Source: Brevundimonas sp. SH203 (GTDB lineage: Bacteria; Pseudomonadota; Alphaproteobacteria; Caulobacterales; Caulobacteraceae). From it: a stretch of 64,000 nucleotides of DNA. Below are positions 40,049 through 45,710 of this stretch, piece after piece; position 1 is the first letter of the stretch; every line of letters begins with the position of its first letter. Location of the stretch: positions 434,001-498,000 of the forward strand of contig NZ_BDMM01000002.1 of assembly GCF_002157625.1 (NCBI RefSeq), written 5' to 3'. Under the pieces are notes generated by a model. That model made no database searches. It was given only the letters and a program-made list of their open reading frames with translations, and had not been told where the DNA came from. Position numbers and translations under genes: made by a program.

Positions 40049-42358
40049 TCACTTCCTTTTGCCCTTCCTCACGCCTTTCAGGCCGCCGGAGGGTTTGGCG
40101 CCGTTGCGGGGCTTAGGGCCGCCGGGGCGGTTCTTGCCGCGCATGGGCGGGCCGTCGCCGCCCCGTCCACGGATGCCATAGCGGGGCGCCGGAGCGTTGG
40201 GGTCGCGAGGTTCGGGCTCGCTGAGCATTTCGAACACCAGTCCGCCGGTGACGGGGGTGGCCTCGCGCAGTTTGACCTCGACCATCCGGCCCAGGGTGAA
40301 GCGTTTGCCGGTGCGTTCGCCGACCAGGGCGTGGGCGCGGTCGTCGTGGGTGAAATATTCGCTGCCCAGCGTCGAGACGGGAACCAGACCGTCCGCGCCC
40401 GTGTCCTCCAGCCGGATGAACAGGCCGAACCGGGTGACGCCGGTGATGCGCCCCTTGAAGGTCGCGCCGATGTGCTCCTCCAGATAGGCGGCGATGTAGC
40501 GGTCCATGGCGTCGCGCTCGGCGGCCATGGAGCGGCGCTCGGTCGTCGTCACCTGTTCGGCGATGGCGGGCAGTTCTGCGATCTCGCGATCCGTCAGCCC
40601 GTCCTTGCCAAGGCCCAGCGCGCGGATCAGGCCGCGATGCACGATCAGGTCGGAATAGCGCCGGATCGGCGAGGTGAAGTGGGCGTAGCGGTCCAGGTTC
40701 AGGCCGAAGTGACCCACGTTCTCGGGGCTGTAGATGGCCTGCATCTGGGTGCGCAGGACGACCTCGTTGACCACGTCGGCGTGTTCGGTGTCGCGCGTCT
40801 CGTCCAGCAGCTTGTTGAACCGTTTGGTCGTGCCCGGCTCGCCCTTGTTCCACGGCTTGCCGATGGTGGACAGGAAGTCGGCCAGGTTGAAGATCTTCTC
40901 CTGACTGGGCGCGTCGTGGATGCGATAGATCAGGGGCGTCTTTTTCTGCTCCAGCGTCTCGGCGGCGCAGACATTGGCCTGGATCATCATCTCCTCGATC
41001 AGCCGGTGCGCCTCCAGCGACGTGCGCTTCTCGATGGAGGCGATGCCGCCGTCCGGCGCCATGCGGATGCGGCGTTCGGCCGATTCGATCTGCAGCGGGC
41101 TGCGCTTCAGCCGGCCCTTCAGCATGGCGTGATAGGCGTTCCACAGCGGATAGAGGATGGCCTCCATGATCGGGCCGGTCGCATCGTCCGGCGCCCTGTC
41201 TATGGCCGCCTGCGCCTGTTCGTAGGACAGTTTGGCGTGCGACCGCATCAGGCCGCGCACGAACCTGTGGCCGGTCTTGCGGCCCTCCTTGTCGAAGACC
41301 ATCCGCACGGCCAGACAGGCGCGGTTCTCGCCCTCCTTCAGGCTGCACAGGCCGTTCGACAGCACTTCCGGCAGCATCGGCTCGACCCGGTCGGGGAAAT
41401 AGGTCGAATTGCCCTTGTCGCGGGCCTCGCGATCCAGCTGCGAGCCGGGGCGGACATAGGCGGCGACATCGGCTATGGCGACCCAGACGATCCAGCCGCC
41501 GGGGTTCTTCGGGTCTTCGTCACGGGCGGCATAGACGGCGTCGTCGTGGTCGCGCGCATCGGCGGGGTCGATGGTGATGAAGGGAACCTCGCGCAGGTCT
41601 TCGCGCCCCTTCAGCGTCGGCAGTTCCTGATCCTCGGCCTCGCGCTCGACGGCCTCGGAGAAGCCGGTCGGGATGCTGTGGGCGTAGATGGCGATCAGGG
41701 AGGCGGCGCGGGGATCGTCCTCCTTGCCGATATGCTCCAGAATCTTGCCCCGCTTGGGACCATAACGATGGTCGCCCTTCTCGACGGCGGCCAGCACCAG
41801 ATCGCCGTCACGCAGGTCGCCGGACTGGGCCTGGGGCACCAGCAGAACGTCCTTGGATCGGCGGTCGACCGGCTCCACGCGGGTCTCACGCGCCGATTTG
41901 CGGATGACGCCCAGGACGCGGTTGGTCCCCACGTCCAGCTTCTTGATCAGCCGGGCCTCCCAGCCTTCCGCGCCGTGCTGGAACTTGACCAGCAGGCGGT
42001 CGCCCAGACCGGGCGCGGTCCTGGACTTGTCGGGCATCAGCAGGGCGCGCGGGGCGTCGGGGCTGGCCTCGACCAGGCGAACATACAGTTCGCCCTCGCC
42101 GTCGCGCTCGATCACATCGGCGACGCCGACGGGGGGCAGGGCGCCGGCTTCGGAAAAGCCCTTGCGGCCGCGCTTGCCCAGCCGGCCTTCGGCCTCCAGT
42201 TCGCGGATCATTTCGCGCAAGGCCCGGCGGTCGCCGCCCTTCAGCCCGAAATGGCGCGCGATGTCGGTCTTCTCGGCCGATCCGGCCTCGCGCAGGAAGG
42301 CGACGAGCGTGTCTTTGTCGGGGAGACCGGCGGGCGGTCTCTTGGATGATTTGGTCAT
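40049..42358 (-). CDS. rnr: Ribonuclease R
   Basis: A 769-residue RNB-family 3'-5' exoribonuclease. It has an N-terminal winged-helix region (DKDTLVAFLREAGSAEKTDIARHFGLKG), cold-shock domains, the RNB catalytic domain with FITIDPADARDHDDAVYA (metal-binding Asp residues) and HFTSPIRRYSDLIVHRGL, an S1 domain (GRITGVTRFGLFIRLEDTGADGLVP) and a basic low-complexity tail (KPRNGAKPSGGLKGVRKGKRK). RNase R degrades structured RNA and assists rRNA and tmRNA processing. Confidence 0.96.
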   Translation of the reverse strand: MTKSSKRPPAGLPDKDTLVAFLREAGSAEKTDIARHFGLKGGDRRALREMIRELEAEGRLGKRGRKGFSEAGALPPVGVADVIERDGEGELYVRLVEASPDAPRALLMPDKSRTAPGLGDRLLVKFQHGAEGWEARLIKKLDVGTNRVLGVIRKSARETRVEPVDRRSKDVLLVPQAQSGDLRDGDLVLAAVEKGDHRYGPKRGKILEHIGKEDDPRAASLIAIYAHSIPTGFSEAVEREAEDQELPTLKGREDLREVPFITIDPADARDHDDAVYAARDEDPKNPGGWIVWVAIADVAAYVRPGSQLDREARDKGNSTYFPDRVEPMLPEVLSNGLCSLKEGENRACLAVRMVFDKEGRKTGHRFVRGLMRSHAKLSYEQAQAAIDRAPDDATGPIMEAILYPLWNAYHAMLKGRLKRSPLQIESAERRIRMAPDGGIASIEKRTSLEAHRLIEEMMIQANVCAAETLEQKKTPLIYRIHDAPSQEKIFNLADFLSTIGKPWNKGEPGTTKRFNKLLDETRDTEHADVVNEVVLRTQMQAIYSPENVGHFGLNLDRYAHFTSPIRRYSDLIVHRGLIRALGLGKDGLTDREIAELPAIAEQVTTTERRSMAAERDAMDRYIAAYLEEHIGATFKGRITGVTRFGLFIRLEDTGADGLVPVSTLGSEYFTHDDRAHALVGERTGKRFTLGRMVEVKLREATPVTGGLVFEMLSEPEPRDPNAPAPRYGIRGRGGDGPPMRGKNRPGGPKPRNGAKPSGGLKGVRKGKRK

Positions 42359-42476
42359 TATGTCTTTCGTAGCGCGGAACAGCGCCCTTGAGTAAATCTT
42401 GAGGGGTCAAATCTTGCGTGAGTTGACCACGTGAAGGCGGGGCTTCAGCTTCCGCCCGCCCCGAATGGAGTTTTCG

Positions 42477-43877
42477 ATGTCCCTCAACGCCCCCGCCCTG
42501 AGCGCGACCGTCTCGTCGCCGCTGGATCTGATCGGCAAGACGCCGATGGTGGAGGTGACGAAGATCGACACCGGCCCGTGCCGCCTGCTGCTCAAGCTGG
42601 AGTCCCAGAACCCCGGCGGTTCGATCAAGGACCGGATCGCGGTGGAGATGCTGGATGCGGCCGAGCGGGAAGGCTGGCTGAAGGAAGGCGGCACGATCGT
42701 CGAGGCGACGGCCGGCAACACGGGCCTGGCCCTGACGCTGGTGGGCCGGGCGCGCGGATATAAGGTGCTTCTGGTCATCCCGGACAAGATGTCCAAGGAA
42801 AAGATTCAGCATCTTCGGGCCATGGGCGCCGATGTCCGCCTGACCCGTTCGGACGTGCCGCATGGCCACCCGGAATACTACACCGACATGGCCGAACGCC
42901 TGTCGCAGGCCATTCCGGGCGCCTATTACGTCAATCAGTTCGCCAATCAGTCGAACGCCGACGCCCATGTGAAGACGACGGGGCCGGAAATCTGGGAACA
43001 GGCGGGCGGCGACATCGACGCCTTCGTCGCCGGCATCGGCTCGGGCGGCACCATCACCGGCGTCGCCCGCTATCTGAAAAGCGTGGGATCGAAGGCCCAG
43101 ATCATCCTGGCCGACCCGGTCGGCTCGACCCTGGCGGGCATCGTCAACGACGGCGTTCCGGGGCCGGAGGGCGGCTATACGGTCGAGGGCATCGGCCAGA
43201 ACTTCGTGCCCGACACGGCCGACATGGGCCTGATCGACAGGGCCTATTCGATCCCCGACGCCGAGGCCATCGCCACGGCGCGCGAACTGCTGCTGAAAGA
43301 GGGCATTCTGGCGGGCTCGTCGTCCGGCACATTGATCGCCACGGCCCTGCGCTGGTGCCGTGAGCAGACGGAAGCCAAGACCTGCGTCACCTTCGTCTGC
43401 GACACCGGAGCCAAATACCTGTCCAAGGTCTATAACGACGCTTGGCTGGCCGATCAGGGGCTGGGCGAGCGCGAAATCCACGGCGACCTGTCGGACCTGA
43501 TCAACCGCAAATACGAGAAGGGCGACGTGATCGTCGCCGGCCCCGGCGACACGCTTGACACGGCCTTCAAGCGGATGAAGGGCGCCGACGTGTCGCAACT
43601 GCCGATCATCGAGGACGGCCGCCTGGTCGGTATTCTGGACGAGAGCGACCTGATCCAGGTGATGAACACCGACGAGATCACGCGCAAGGAACGGTTCGCC
43701 AAACCCGTGTCCTCGGCCATGACGCGCGATTTGGACACGGTTCAGGTCAACGAGCCTCTGGACGCCCTGATCCCCGTCTTCGACCGCGACCGCGTGGCCA
43801 TCGTGCTGGACGGCGAAACCTTCGTCGGCCTGATCACCCGCACCGACCTGATCAACCACCTGAGCCTGAATCGGTAG
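42477..43877 (+). CDS. Cystathionine beta-synthase (PLP domain plus CBS-domain pair)
   Basis: A 466-residue fold-type II PLP enzyme. The PLP lysine is in NPGGSIKDRIAVEML and the phosphate loop is GSGGTITG. Residues about 340-466 form a Bateman module of two CBS domains (PGDTLDTAFKRMKGADVSQLPIIEDGRLVGILDESDL and the closing VAIVLDGETFVGLITRTDLINHL). It condenses serine and homocysteine to cystathionine, or acts as an O-acetylserine sulfhydrylase-like enzyme. I chose ATG 42477 because GGAG sits six bases upstream; the upstream ATG at 42465 would consume that site. Confidence 0.93.
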   Translation: MSLNAPALSATVSSPLDLIGKTPMVEVTKIDTGPCRLLLKLESQNPGGSIKDRIAVEMLDAAEREGWLKEGGTIVEATAGNTGLALTLVGRARGYKVLLVIPDKMSKEKIQHLRAMGADVRLTRSDVPHGHPEYYTDMAERLSQAIPGAYYVNQFANQSNADAHVKTTGPEIWEQAGGDIDAFVAGIGSGGTITGVARYLKSVGSKAQIILADPVGSTLAGIVNDGVPGPEGGYTVEGIGQNFVPDTADMGLIDRAYSIPDAEAIATARELLLKEGILAGSSSGTLIATALRWCREQTEAKTCVTFVCDTGAKYLSKVYNDAWLADQGLGEREIHGDLSDLINRKYEKGDVIVAGPGDTLDTAFKRMKGADVSQLPIIEDGRLVGILDESDLIQVMNTDEITRKERFAKPVSSAMTRDLDTVQVNEPLDALIPVFDRDRVAIVLDGETFVGLITRTDLINHLSLNR

Positions 43878-43885
43878 GCTGGCCC

Positions 43886-44113
43886 ATGGTGACATTGCAC
43901 CGAGCGCCGGCCTGGAAGATCGCTGTCTATGGCCGCGATCATGGCGTGCCGCACTTCCATGTCGAAGGGCGCGGCTGGCGGTGCTCGGTTGCAATCGCCA
44001 CCCTGGAGGTCATCATAGGCACCTATGATGCCAGATCGCTGGCCGCCGCCATCGCCTGGGCCAGCGCGCGGCGGGCGGAGTTGGCGGACACCTGGAACGA
44101 GTTGAACCCATGA
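43886..44113 (+). CDS. DUF4160 domain protein
   Basis: A 75-residue protein matching DUF4160: the core motif WKIAVYGRDHGVPHFHVEGRGWRCSVAI (the family's D-H-x-P-H-x-H-V pattern) and a C-terminal helical part. It starts eight bases after the synthase gene and overlaps the following DUF2442 gene by four bases. DUF4160-DUF2442 pairs are widespread and have been suggested as toxin-antitoxin-like modules; function is unproven. Confidence 0.88.
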   Translation: MVTLHRAPAWKIAVYGRDHGVPHFHVEGRGWRCSVAIATLEVIIGTYDARSLAAAIAWASARRAELADTWNELNP

Positions 44114-44547
44114 TGGGCGTCGAAGACCAACATGAACTGACTGCGGTGAAAGCGTCCGCGCCCTGCTGGCTGGATTTACGCTGGGGCGACGGCCGCGAGG
44201 CGAGAATCGACCTGACCAGGACGCTGGAGAACAAGGCGTTCGAGGCGTTGCGCGATCCGGCCGTCTTCACGGCCGTCGATCTGGGCGACTGGGGCCACAG
44301 TCTGGTCTGGTCCGACGACATCGAAATCGGCGCCGATTCCCTTTGGCTCGACAGCCTGTCGGCCTGGGGCAGGGAGGACACGCGGTCGTTCCTGGAATGG
44401 CGTCTTCGCAACGGCTTCTCCGCCACGGCGGCGGCCGAAGCCCTGGGCATCTCGCGGGCCAGCGTGATCCGATATTCGACCGAGGCCACGGTGCCTCGCT
44501 CCATTCAACTGGCCTGCAAGGGCTGGGATGCGTTGAAAGCCGCGTAA
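44110..44547 (+). CDS. DUF2442 protein with C-terminal helix-turn-helix
   Basis: A 145-residue protein. Residues about 20-90 match DUF2442 (LDLRWGDGREARIDLTRTL, FTAVDLGDWGHSLVW, IEIGADSLW), and the C-terminal third is a helix-turn-helix-like segment (FSATAAAEALGISRASVIRYSTEATVPRSIQLACKGWDAL). This is the layout of DUF2442 antitoxin-like partners with their own DNA-binding part. Its stop (TAA) and the start of the next gene share a base (TAATG), so it is embedded in one operon with the two PLP enzymes. Confidence 0.88.
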   Translation: MMGVEDQHELTAVKASAPCWLDLRWGDGREARIDLTRTLENKAFEALRDPAVFTAVDLGDWGHSLVWSDDIEIGADSLWLDSLSAWGREDTRSFLEWRLRNGFSATAAAEALGISRASVIRYSTEATVPRSIQLACKGWDALKAA

Positions 44548-45710
44548 TGACTGACAAGAAGAACAGCCAGGGTTTCTCGACCCGCGCCATCCATGCCGGC
44601 CAGCGTCCCGATCCGACGACGGGGGCGGTGATGACGCCGATCTACGCCACCTCGACCTACGCCCAGGAAAGCCCCGGCGTGAACAAGGGCTATGAGTATG
44701 CGCGGGGCAAGAACCCCACGCGCGAGGCGTTCGAGGCCTGTGTCGCCGATCTGGAGGGCGGGACGCACGGCTTCGGCTTCGGTTCGGGCATGGCGGCGAC
44801 CTCGACGGCGCTGGAACTGCTGGACGCGGGCGATCATGTCGTGACCGGCGACGACCTGTACGGCGGATCGTGGCGGCTGTTCGAACGGGTGCGTCGGCGC
44901 TCGATGGGGCTGGACTTCGCCTATGTAGACCTGAGCGACATTGCGGCGGTCGAGGCGGCGATCACGCCCAAGACCAAGATGCTGTGGGTCGAGACGCCGA
45001 CCAATCCGCTGATGAAGCTGGCCGACATCGCCGCCCTGTCCAAGGTGGCCAAGGCGCACGGCCTCTTGCTGATCGTGGACAACACCTTCGCCACCCCCTT
45101 CTGCCAGCAGCCGCTTAGCCTGGGGGCGGACGTTGTCATGCACTCGGCGACCAAATATCTGAACGGCCATTCCGACATCATCGGCGGGGTGCTGGTCACG
45201 GGCGACGCCGATCTGGCGACGCGCATCAAGTTCCTGCAGAACTCGGTCGGCGGGGTCATGGGGCCGTTCGACGCCTTCCTGGCCAACCGCGGCCTGAAGA
45301 CCCTGGCGCTGCGGATGAAGGCGCACTGCGAGAACGCCCTGACCATCGCCCGCTGGCTGGAGACGCGGGCGGGGATCGCCAGGGTGATCTATCCCGGCCT
45401 GATCGCCCATCCGCAGCACGAACTGGCCGCGCGCCAGATGCACGGCGGCTTCGGCGGCATGGTGACGGTGATCCTGGACGGCGACCTGGAACGCACCAAA
45501 CGGGTGCTGGAGCGGGTGCAGGTCTTCACCCTGGCGGAATCGCTGGGCGGGGTCGAAAGCCTGGTCAACCACCCGGCCATCATGACCCACGCCTCGGTGC
45601 CGAAAGAGGTCCGCGAGGCGGGCGGCGTGACCGACAATCTGATCCGGCTGTCGGTCGGCGTCGAGGACGTCGCGGACCTGATCGCCGACCTGGATCAGGC
45701 GCTGGGCTGA
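44547..45710 (+). CDS. Cystathionine gamma-lyase/synthase family PLP enzyme
   Basis: A 387-residue fold-type I PLP enzyme of Cys/Met metabolism. Key segments are YEYARGKNPTREAFEACVADLEGG, FGSGMAATSTAL, DDLYGGSWRLFERV, LWVETPTNPL, VDNTFATPF and VMHSATKYLNGHSD with the PLP lysine. With the upstream beta-synthase it makes a reverse transsulfuration route from homocysteine to cysteine; gamma-lyase is therefore the likely role, though gamma-synthases look alike. The ATG overlaps the DUF2442 stop. Confidence 0.92.
   Translation: MTDKKNSQGFSTRAIHAGQRPDPTTGAVMTPIYATSTYAQESPGVNKGYEYARGKNPTREAFEACVADLEGGTHGFGFGSGMAATSTALELLDAGDHVVTGDDLYGGSWRLFERVRRRSMGLDFAYVDLSDIAAVEAAITPKTKMLWVETPTNPLMKLADIAALSKVAKAHGLLLIVDNTFATPFCQQPLSLGADVVMHSATKYLNGHSDIIGGVLVTGDADLATRIKFLQNSVGGVMGPFDAFLANRGLKTLALRMKAHCENALTIARWLETRAGIARVIYPGLIAHPQHELAARQMHGGFGGMVTVILDGDLERTKRVLERVQVFTLAESLGGVESLVNHPAIMTHASVPKEVREAGGVTDNLIRLSVGVEDVADLIADLDQALG

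Follow-up and report, generated by a model that had tools for sequence, protein, structure and literature searches.

In a 64,000-nucleotide stretch of the Brevundimonas sp. SH203 genome (NCBI RefSeq assembly GCF_002157625.1, contig NZ_BDMM01000002.1, positions 434,001 to 498,000; hereafter the window), two overlapping genes lie between a cystathionine beta-synthase-like gene (CBS) and a cystathionine gamma-synthase/lyase-family gene (CGS). The first encodes a DUF4160 protein and the second a DUF2442 protein with a C-terminal helix-turn-helix (HTH) domain. Both domains and the toxin-first, overlapping gene order are those of a published kind of type II toxin-antitoxin (TA) system. We consider it probable that the pair is a laterally exchanged, working TA module that was captured behind the CBS promoter and that lost its own switch in the clade to which the window belongs. 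What appears to be new, on the evidence of sequence comparison, is this variant form of the DUF4160/DUF2442 kind, situated inside an enzyme operon without a switch of its own. With its relatives, the pair forms a natural series, largely within one genus: a free TA module with an operator, an operon TA module with an operator, an operon TA module without one, and the empty site. The series makes directly testable what a TA module loses as a passenger of a housekeeping operon, and predicts an operator for DUF2442-HTH antitoxins.

Organisation of the locus

The initial annotation of this DNA had placed the pair between the two enzyme genes, with a 4-base overlap between its genes and a one-base overlap with CGS; on re-reading of the open reading frames (ORFs), its coordinates and both overlaps proved exact. 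The features are listed below. Labels beginning with G, L and C denote the genomes, loci and contigs that were compared, and the window genome is G000.

43886-44113, + strand: DUF4160 gene, predicted toxin, 75 aa (Pfam 42.5 bits, cut-off 23)
44110..44113, + strand: ATGA shared by the toxin stop and the antitoxin start, 4 nt, presumably coupling their translation
44110-44547, + strand: DUF2442-HTH gene, predicted antitoxin/repressor, 145 aa (Pfam 33.3 bits, cut-off 23.9; PDB 2AUW by sequence and fold)
44455..44478, + strand: predicted recognition helix, residues 116-123, RASVIRYS (AlphaFold2 model)
44011..44030, + strand: palindrome CATCATAGG-CA-CCTATGATG within the toxin gene, a weak candidate for a displaced operator
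43878..43885, + strand: gap between CBS and DUF4160, 8 nt; in Brevundimonas clade B (see below) 34 nt with a promoter-operator, none of which is seen here
42477..43877, + strand: CBS (Pfam PALP and CBS domains; stop 43875-43877)
44547..45710, + strand: CGS (Pfam Cys_Met_Meta_PP), its start sharing 1 nt with the antitoxin stop
42359..42476, + strand: CBS-side intergenic region, the presumed operon promoter, with a TTGACC element in GGTCAAATCTTGCGTGAGTTGACC
40049-42358, - strand: RNB-family exoribonuclease gene, divergent from CBS

The base common to the DUF2442 stop and the CGS start is the last A of TAA, at position 44547, and the CBS ORF possibly starts at 42465 instead of 42477. The toxin and antitoxin genes overlap by 4 nt in 8 of the nine Brevundimonas pairs and by 11 nt in G043, and the antitoxin and CGS genes overlap by 1-4 nt in five of the nine pair genomes and are separated by 1-4 nt in the other four. 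Chance does not account for the arrangement, as homologous pairs on plasmids have the same 4-nt overlap and selection has conserved the two genes. Shine-Dalgarno energies showed no clear pattern. The CGS protein passes the NCBIfam cystathionine gamma-synthase model (532 bits, cut-off 513), and its first description as gamma-lyase-like is a fair family label.

Kinship to DUF4160/DUF2442 toxin-antitoxin systems

By analogy with the published systems, whose domains and gene order it shares, the pair is best described as TA-like, a possibility that the initial annotation had raised. In dhiTA of Dickeya dadantii 3937, the toxin gene comes first, its product inhibits growth in Dickeya and in E. coli, and the antitoxin neutralises it; the antitoxin represses the dhiTA promoter by about 50%, and the toxin-antitoxin complex does so more strongly (PMC8198452, in the parts of the report available to us). 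The window pair has the same domain pair, the same toxin-first order and overlapping genes, and a repressor antitoxin with its toxin as co-repressor would fit the operator found in the window pair's relatives. Unlike dhiTA, the window pair sits within an enzyme operon, with no sign of a promoter belonging to the pair itself; an autoregulated promoter directly before the toxin gene is absent from the window, where the gap is 8 nt long and holds no palindrome. The missing operator makes a typical dhiTA operon less likely without lowering the case for a pair that works as a TA system, as an internal or distant promoter could still serve it. In the strict sense the pair falls outside DhiTA, scoring 35.2 and 13.9 bits against NCBIfam NF048015 and NF048016, which require 100 and 200.

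A second published system, the 'PEM' module of a Thermus thermophilus plasmid, increases plasmid persistence, and a plasmid without its second ORF yielded no transformants in Thermus, where the first ORF is thus tolerated only with the second (PMC12724237, as far as its accessible text goes). Domain pair and order are again those of the window pair; the Thermus antitoxin, however, has 92 aa and is plasmid-borne, whereas that of the window has 145 aa with an HTH end and is encoded in a chromosomal enzyme operon. Sphingomonad plasmids of 13-67 kb also carry close kin of the pair: those from Sphingobium, Novosphingobium and Sphingopyxis encode an antitoxin with an HTH that is ~51% identical to the window's. 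The annotated pairs L126, L127, L128 and L131 have the 4-nt overlap seen in the window, an operator directly before the toxin gene and, after the pair, a histidine phosphatase gene instead of CGS. Four plasmid stretches that we viewed contain integrase or transposase genes, some with a replication gene or a RelB/YafQ pair; neither CBS/CGS-type enzymes nor annotated anti-CRISPR genes are present in the stretches viewed.

DUF4160 frames with internal stops occur beside antitoxin matches at L118:4777-4998, L119:4777-4998 and L123:340-567. The stop in L123 is at codon 11, and a later start is possible there. At L118 and L119, stops interrupt the toxin frame beside an antitoxin that remains matched almost from end to end, a pattern to be expected of a toxin that is a burden.

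Taken alone, the HTH end of the antitoxin stays below every Pfam HTH cut-off (best 17.7 against 27). The whole protein matches NE0471 of Nitrosomonas europaea (PDB 2AUW, 'putative DNA binding protein') by sequence (5e-20), by profile (6e-26) and by predicted fold (Foldseek E 2e-10), at 37% identity; the two have the same two-domain architecture, in keeping with the putative DNA-binding C-terminus first read from the sequence. In the available text of PMC9410881, the NE0471 structure is given as unpublished, with no function stated, and appears in the DALI list of Aca10, a repressor of anti-CRISPR operons. Aca10 itself differs from the window antitoxin in its operator sequence, and that text mentions no DUF2442 domain for it. 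By published residue numbering, residues 117, 120 and 121 of the window antitoxin may resemble DNA contacts of Aca2. On the toxin side, residues H19, P22-H23-F24-H25, G45, W58 and W70 of DUF4160 are invariant across 17 aligned homologues. The AlphaFold2 model (mean predicted local distance difference test score, pLDDT, 95.6) has no convincing fold match in the PDB (best hits at E 0.28 with Foldseek and Z 4.5 with VIA-align), and therefore no toxin mechanism can be read from the structure, although related folds may exist. Searches of both proteins against the PADLOC anti-phage models (0 at E <= 10) and a phage collection gave no match; viral contigs contained one distant relative, L125, with 32% identity.

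A probable palindromic operator in relatives and its absence in clade A

Relatives of the pair carry a palindrome before the DUF4160 gene, GTGCA-N5-TGCAC, usually extended to TRGTGCA-N5-TGCACTA. It is found on the Sphingomonad plasmids, in many other Proteobacteria and in four Brevundimonas genomes. Its first base lies 26 nt ahead of the start codon in clade B and in the group closest to the window pair, and it stands between a TTGNNN hexamer and one like TATNNT; judging by this position, the palindrome probably fills the 17-bp spacer between the -35 and -10 elements of a sigma-70-like promoter and would serve as an autoregulatory operator. We scanned the 150 nt before DUF4160 at the 26 loci, out of 31 non-Brevundimonas loci examined, in which a profile found this gene (L118, L119, L129, L136 and L142 were set aside). 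The motif has 0-1 mismatches at 14 of these loci, two at four, and three or more at eight. By eye, the motif is exact in L118 and has one mismatch in L119. In the literature found on the DUF4160/DUF2442 domains, as far as its available text extends, no operator for DUF2442-HTH antitoxins is described.

The Brevundimonas pairs fall into two sets. In clade B (G043, G045, G076 and G102), all four loci carry the palindrome with 0 mismatches in a 34-nt gap after the CBS stop. Clade A, the window's own (G000, G008, G080, G115 and G017), is supported as one group (99/92), has gaps of 7-12 nt and has the operator in none of its five members, the best matches (3-4 mismatches) lying at the level of shuffled sequence. 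The strict pattern TRGTGCANNNNNTGCACYA is absent from the five whole clade A genomes, a pattern that also misses G076 and G102, where the outer bases vary. The window lineage thus appears to have lost the switch, if we infer the direction of change correctly. It had been suggested from the start that the pair is expressed together with cysteine metabolism, and the clade A pair does appear to depend on the CBS promoter.

The predicted recognition helix changes along with the operator. Among the 22 operator-bearing homologues (the 18 above and clade B), 14 have a helix of the form SRR[MTI]xAYY and the remainder depart slightly from it (STRSIAYY and SRRTVANY, for instance). In clade A all five helices read SR[APS]SV[IV][RK]YS, a form unique to that clade among the aligned rows, and distant homologues lacking a recognisable operator also tend away from the common helix (for example ARSISRY in L134). 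This joint change supports the palindrome as the target of the HTH and suggests that the clade A antitoxin has lost or altered its specificity for it.

A palindrome of another kind lies within the toxin gene at 44011-44030. It is kept in four of the five clade A genomes (present in G000, G008 and G080, shorter in G115, degenerate in G017) and uses a rare ATA codon (1.4% of Ile). When the window toxin gene was recoded synonymously, arms of at least 8 nt arose in 69/400 and 101/400 recodings (17-25%) and arms of at least 9 nt in 28/400 and 44/400; since similar palindromes arise so often, we treat it as a lead only. Around it, at 43980-44030, rare codons are conserved, GTT GCA in all five clade A genomes and ATA in four. 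A scan of the 4.1-kb clade A loci for gapped palindromes with 6-nt half-sites gave five half-site/spacer classes shared by at least four of the five genomes. Two of these turn up in clade B genomes as well, and a CCTTCA class with spacer 6, present in all five, falls within the coding part of CBS and recurs in 24 of 42 pair-less genomes. The other two are the palindrome within the toxin gene and are not clearly beyond chance.

The CBS-CGS junction across the genus

The junction survey covers those 120 of the genus's 131 genomes in which CBS and CGS share a contig and a strand; genomes with one gene missing or on another contig (8) or with neither gene (3) were excluded. The two genes abut in 71 of the 120, at a distance of 4-19 nt including the stop codon. 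This count includes G075, where an additional, partial copy of CBS stands between the full CBS and CGS (contig C77, 4175-6660) and served as the reference for the distance. The remaining 49 junctions hold inserts of 672-4056 nt, nine of which are the pair. The other 40 (L023-L062) all contain one ORF cluster that occurs at none of the nine pair loci, consisting of one or several tandem alpha/beta hydrolase genes and never found alongside the pair. This assignment rests on Pfam for five proteins from four loci, which pass the dienelactone hydrolase cut-off, and on the ORF cluster for the rest; by a rough count, about half of the 40 have more than one copy. Some of these hydrolases have N-termini that look secreted by eye. 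The three states of the junction mark the pair as an accessory insert at a site that takes other cargo too.

Antitoxin homologues occur in nine of the 131 genus genomes, all nine at this junction. Conservation of the four-gene order, which the initial annotation had proposed to check across Caulobacteraceae, does not hold, with the pair at 9 of 120 junctions and the enzyme genes adjacent at 71. The same annotation had named, as one part of what would refute its proposals, the absence of the pair from close relatives with adjacent pyridoxal-phosphate (PLP) enzyme genes; such relatives exist, and they count against an operon regulator but leave the case for a TA module as it was. Across the wider family, 12 of 390 genomes have the antitoxin, the nine Brevundimonas and three of one other genus; it is found in 5 of 385 genomes of the class at E <= 1e-20 and in 16 of 349 of the phylum at E <= 1e-12, with G000 counted in each sample. 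The stretches fetched around the three members from the other genus contain no CBS or CGS. One of them, L163, has a DUF4160/DUF2442-HTH pair with an operator of 0 mismatches (near 2775 after reverse complement), and another, L165, has an interrupted antitoxin.

Selection and probable exchange of the pair

Both genes are under purifying selection as judged from substitution patterns. The ratio of non-synonymous to synonymous substitution rates (dN/dS) is ~0.06-0.23 for the toxin, for which some comparisons were undefined or had saturated dS, and 0.09-0.33 for the antitoxin, and none of the nine Brevundimonas toxin frames is broken. For G000 against G008, dS in the pair (0.20 for the toxin, 0.21 for the antitoxin) equals the neighbourhood median of 0.21 over 29 orthologs. 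Between G000 and G080 it is 0.56/0.58, above 29 of 30 orthologs (median 0.27, maximum 0.59), and between G000 and G115 it is 0.76/1.01, above all 15 (median 0.42, maximum 0.71); the ortholog lists include a few overlong ORFs. Raised dS relative to the neighbours points to lateral exchange. The enzymes of G017 are distant, yet its pair groups with the pairs of G000, G008, G080 and G115 (99/92), which, together with the dS values, is what lateral exchange at this one site would produce. Third-position identity showed no obvious step that would mark recombination breakpoints in the CBS and CGS flanks. Pair-less sisters are found for three of the pair genomes (G082 for G080, G058 for G115, G137 for G102). 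On a host tree built from CBS and CGS of 51 chosen genomes (nine with the pair, 36 empty, six with hydrolases), the distribution of the pair requires at least 7 changes, where shuffled labels require 8.4 on average and 51 of 500 shuffles are as low. A quick tree placed clade A beside the plasmid group (88), a placement that the careful tree leaves open.

A proposed model of capture

The favoured explanation, a TA module captured behind the CBS promoter, would run as follows. The free module would consist of a toxin gene followed by that of a DUF2442-HTH antitoxin that neutralises the toxin, transcribed from its own promoter with a palindromic operator, to which the antitoxin HTH would bind for autoregulation. 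Capture in Brevundimonas would have placed the module exactly at the boundary where CBS ends and CGS begins, and in clade A the promoter-operator would then have been deleted. The clade A pair would thereafter be transcribed only with CBS and CGS, from the CBS promoter, and in the window toxin, antitoxin and CGS would be linked by their overlapping start and stop codons. The pair, accessory and passed on laterally, would persist while purifying selection acts on it. Its role in fitness may be addiction to the locus or a response to stress or phage.

Several observations weigh against this explanation. The published toxicity and neutralisation belong to distant members of the kind only, and because the DhiT/DhiA cut-offs are far from met, activity is transferred here across distant homology; in E. 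coli, moreover, both Thermus deletion plasmids were maintained and neither ORF had an effect (PMC12724237, within its accessible text). As to the operator, 8 of the 26 loci, all distant homologues, have no recognisable motif, and each of the four matches with two mismatches is weak by itself, being equalled in 13-19 of 300 shuffles. In L137, L138, L139, L146 and L149 the motif stands 59-77 nt upstream and not beside the gene, several operator loci are near-copies (L126 and L131 are identical), and L164, from the other genus of the family, has the pair with no operator within 1 mismatch in the fetched stretch. Transcription might also start from within the CBS gene or the toxin gene. The case for exchange is tempered by the low toxin dS between G008 and G080 (0.33, against 0.53 for the antitoxin) and by codon usage: GC content at third positions (GC3) is 0.79-0.82 in the pair against 0.88-0.90 in the flanks, and weaker codon bias and short genes could account for part of the elevated dS. 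The scatter of the pair on the host tree is hardly below that of shuffled labels. A single clade of all nine Brevundimonas pairs is neither rejected nor shown (approximately unbiased test, p-AU 0.495), and the trees are compatible with one capture followed by loss as well as with two captures at one site.

Alternative explanations

The initial annotation also raised the possibility that the HTH protein regulates the operon from the region before 42477. The DUF2442-HTH protein would then be a dedicated transcription factor of CBS and CGS, with DUF4160 as its partner or sensor, and the pair would belong to transsulfuration control. Tight placement, overlapping start and stop codons, the HTH fold and the constraint on the HTH within clade A are all in keeping with such a role. 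A regulator of transsulfuration would be expected to travel with its operon, and the pair is at 9 of 120 junctions, 71 being empty and 40 holding hydrolase genes; homologous pairs, furthermore, lie on plasmids, and the viewed stretches of these contain neither enzyme. The 150 nt before CBS are identical at 146/150 positions between the window and pair-less G057 and at 148/150 between G080 and its pair-less sister G082, with less alike sequences in G115/G058 (108/150), G102/G137 (131/151) and G008/G057 (127/150), and none of the five comparisons revealed a palindrome special to pair carriers. In G017 the region is of a different type from that of G000. Near-identity in two of the five comparisons and the lack of a palindrome specific to pair carriers in the rest tell against a site brought in by the pair; the antitoxin could use a pre-existing sequence. 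We regard a dedicated operon regulator as very unlikely. Many relatives, carriers and non-carriers of the pair alike, retain the inverted sequences GGTCAA...TTGACC ahead of CBS (42359-42476), which may be part of the promoter or another regulator's site.

The remaining alternatives concern the state of the pair in clade A. It might be a decaying or neutral remnant, its operator lost, its helix diverging and its TA function gone; the missing operator and the faster divergence of the pair proteins relative to their neighbours would follow, and the broken toxins of L118 and L119 show that such decay happens. The intact toxin frames in all nine genomes, dN/dS of ~0.06-0.33, the invariant core motifs of the toxin and a helix still constrained within clade A make this improbable. 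It is quite unlikely that clade A controls itself by another route, with the altered HTH binding a new site such as the 44011-44030 palindrome, or with an internal promoter driving the antitoxin. A helix that has changed yet stays constrained, the palindrome with its rare ATA codon in four of five genomes and the conserved GTT GCA codons nearby would accord with it; the recoding frequencies and the degenerate palindrome of G017 count the other way. A bolder form of the capture model, which we think unlikely, is that the module has been assimilated: the self-repressed promoter would have been dropped and the helix retargeted, possibly to the palindrome in the toxin gene, the output of cysteine metabolism would set the amounts of toxin and antitoxin, and translation of CGS would be tied to that of the antitoxin.

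A second pair behind a metabolic gene

Judged by titles and the beginnings of abstracts, no related paper was found on TA systems within CBS or metabolic operons, and none that involved Brevundimonas. Elsewhere in G000, another DUF4160/DUF2442 pair begins 0 nt after the end of a gene for porphobilinogen synthase (484 bits, cut-off 297), on the - strand of contig C1 near 191093-191531 (L010:1230-2721). Both pairs of this genome thus stand directly behind metabolic genes; under the bolder form of the capture model, the second would suggest that such modules repeatedly become operon passengers of metabolic genes.
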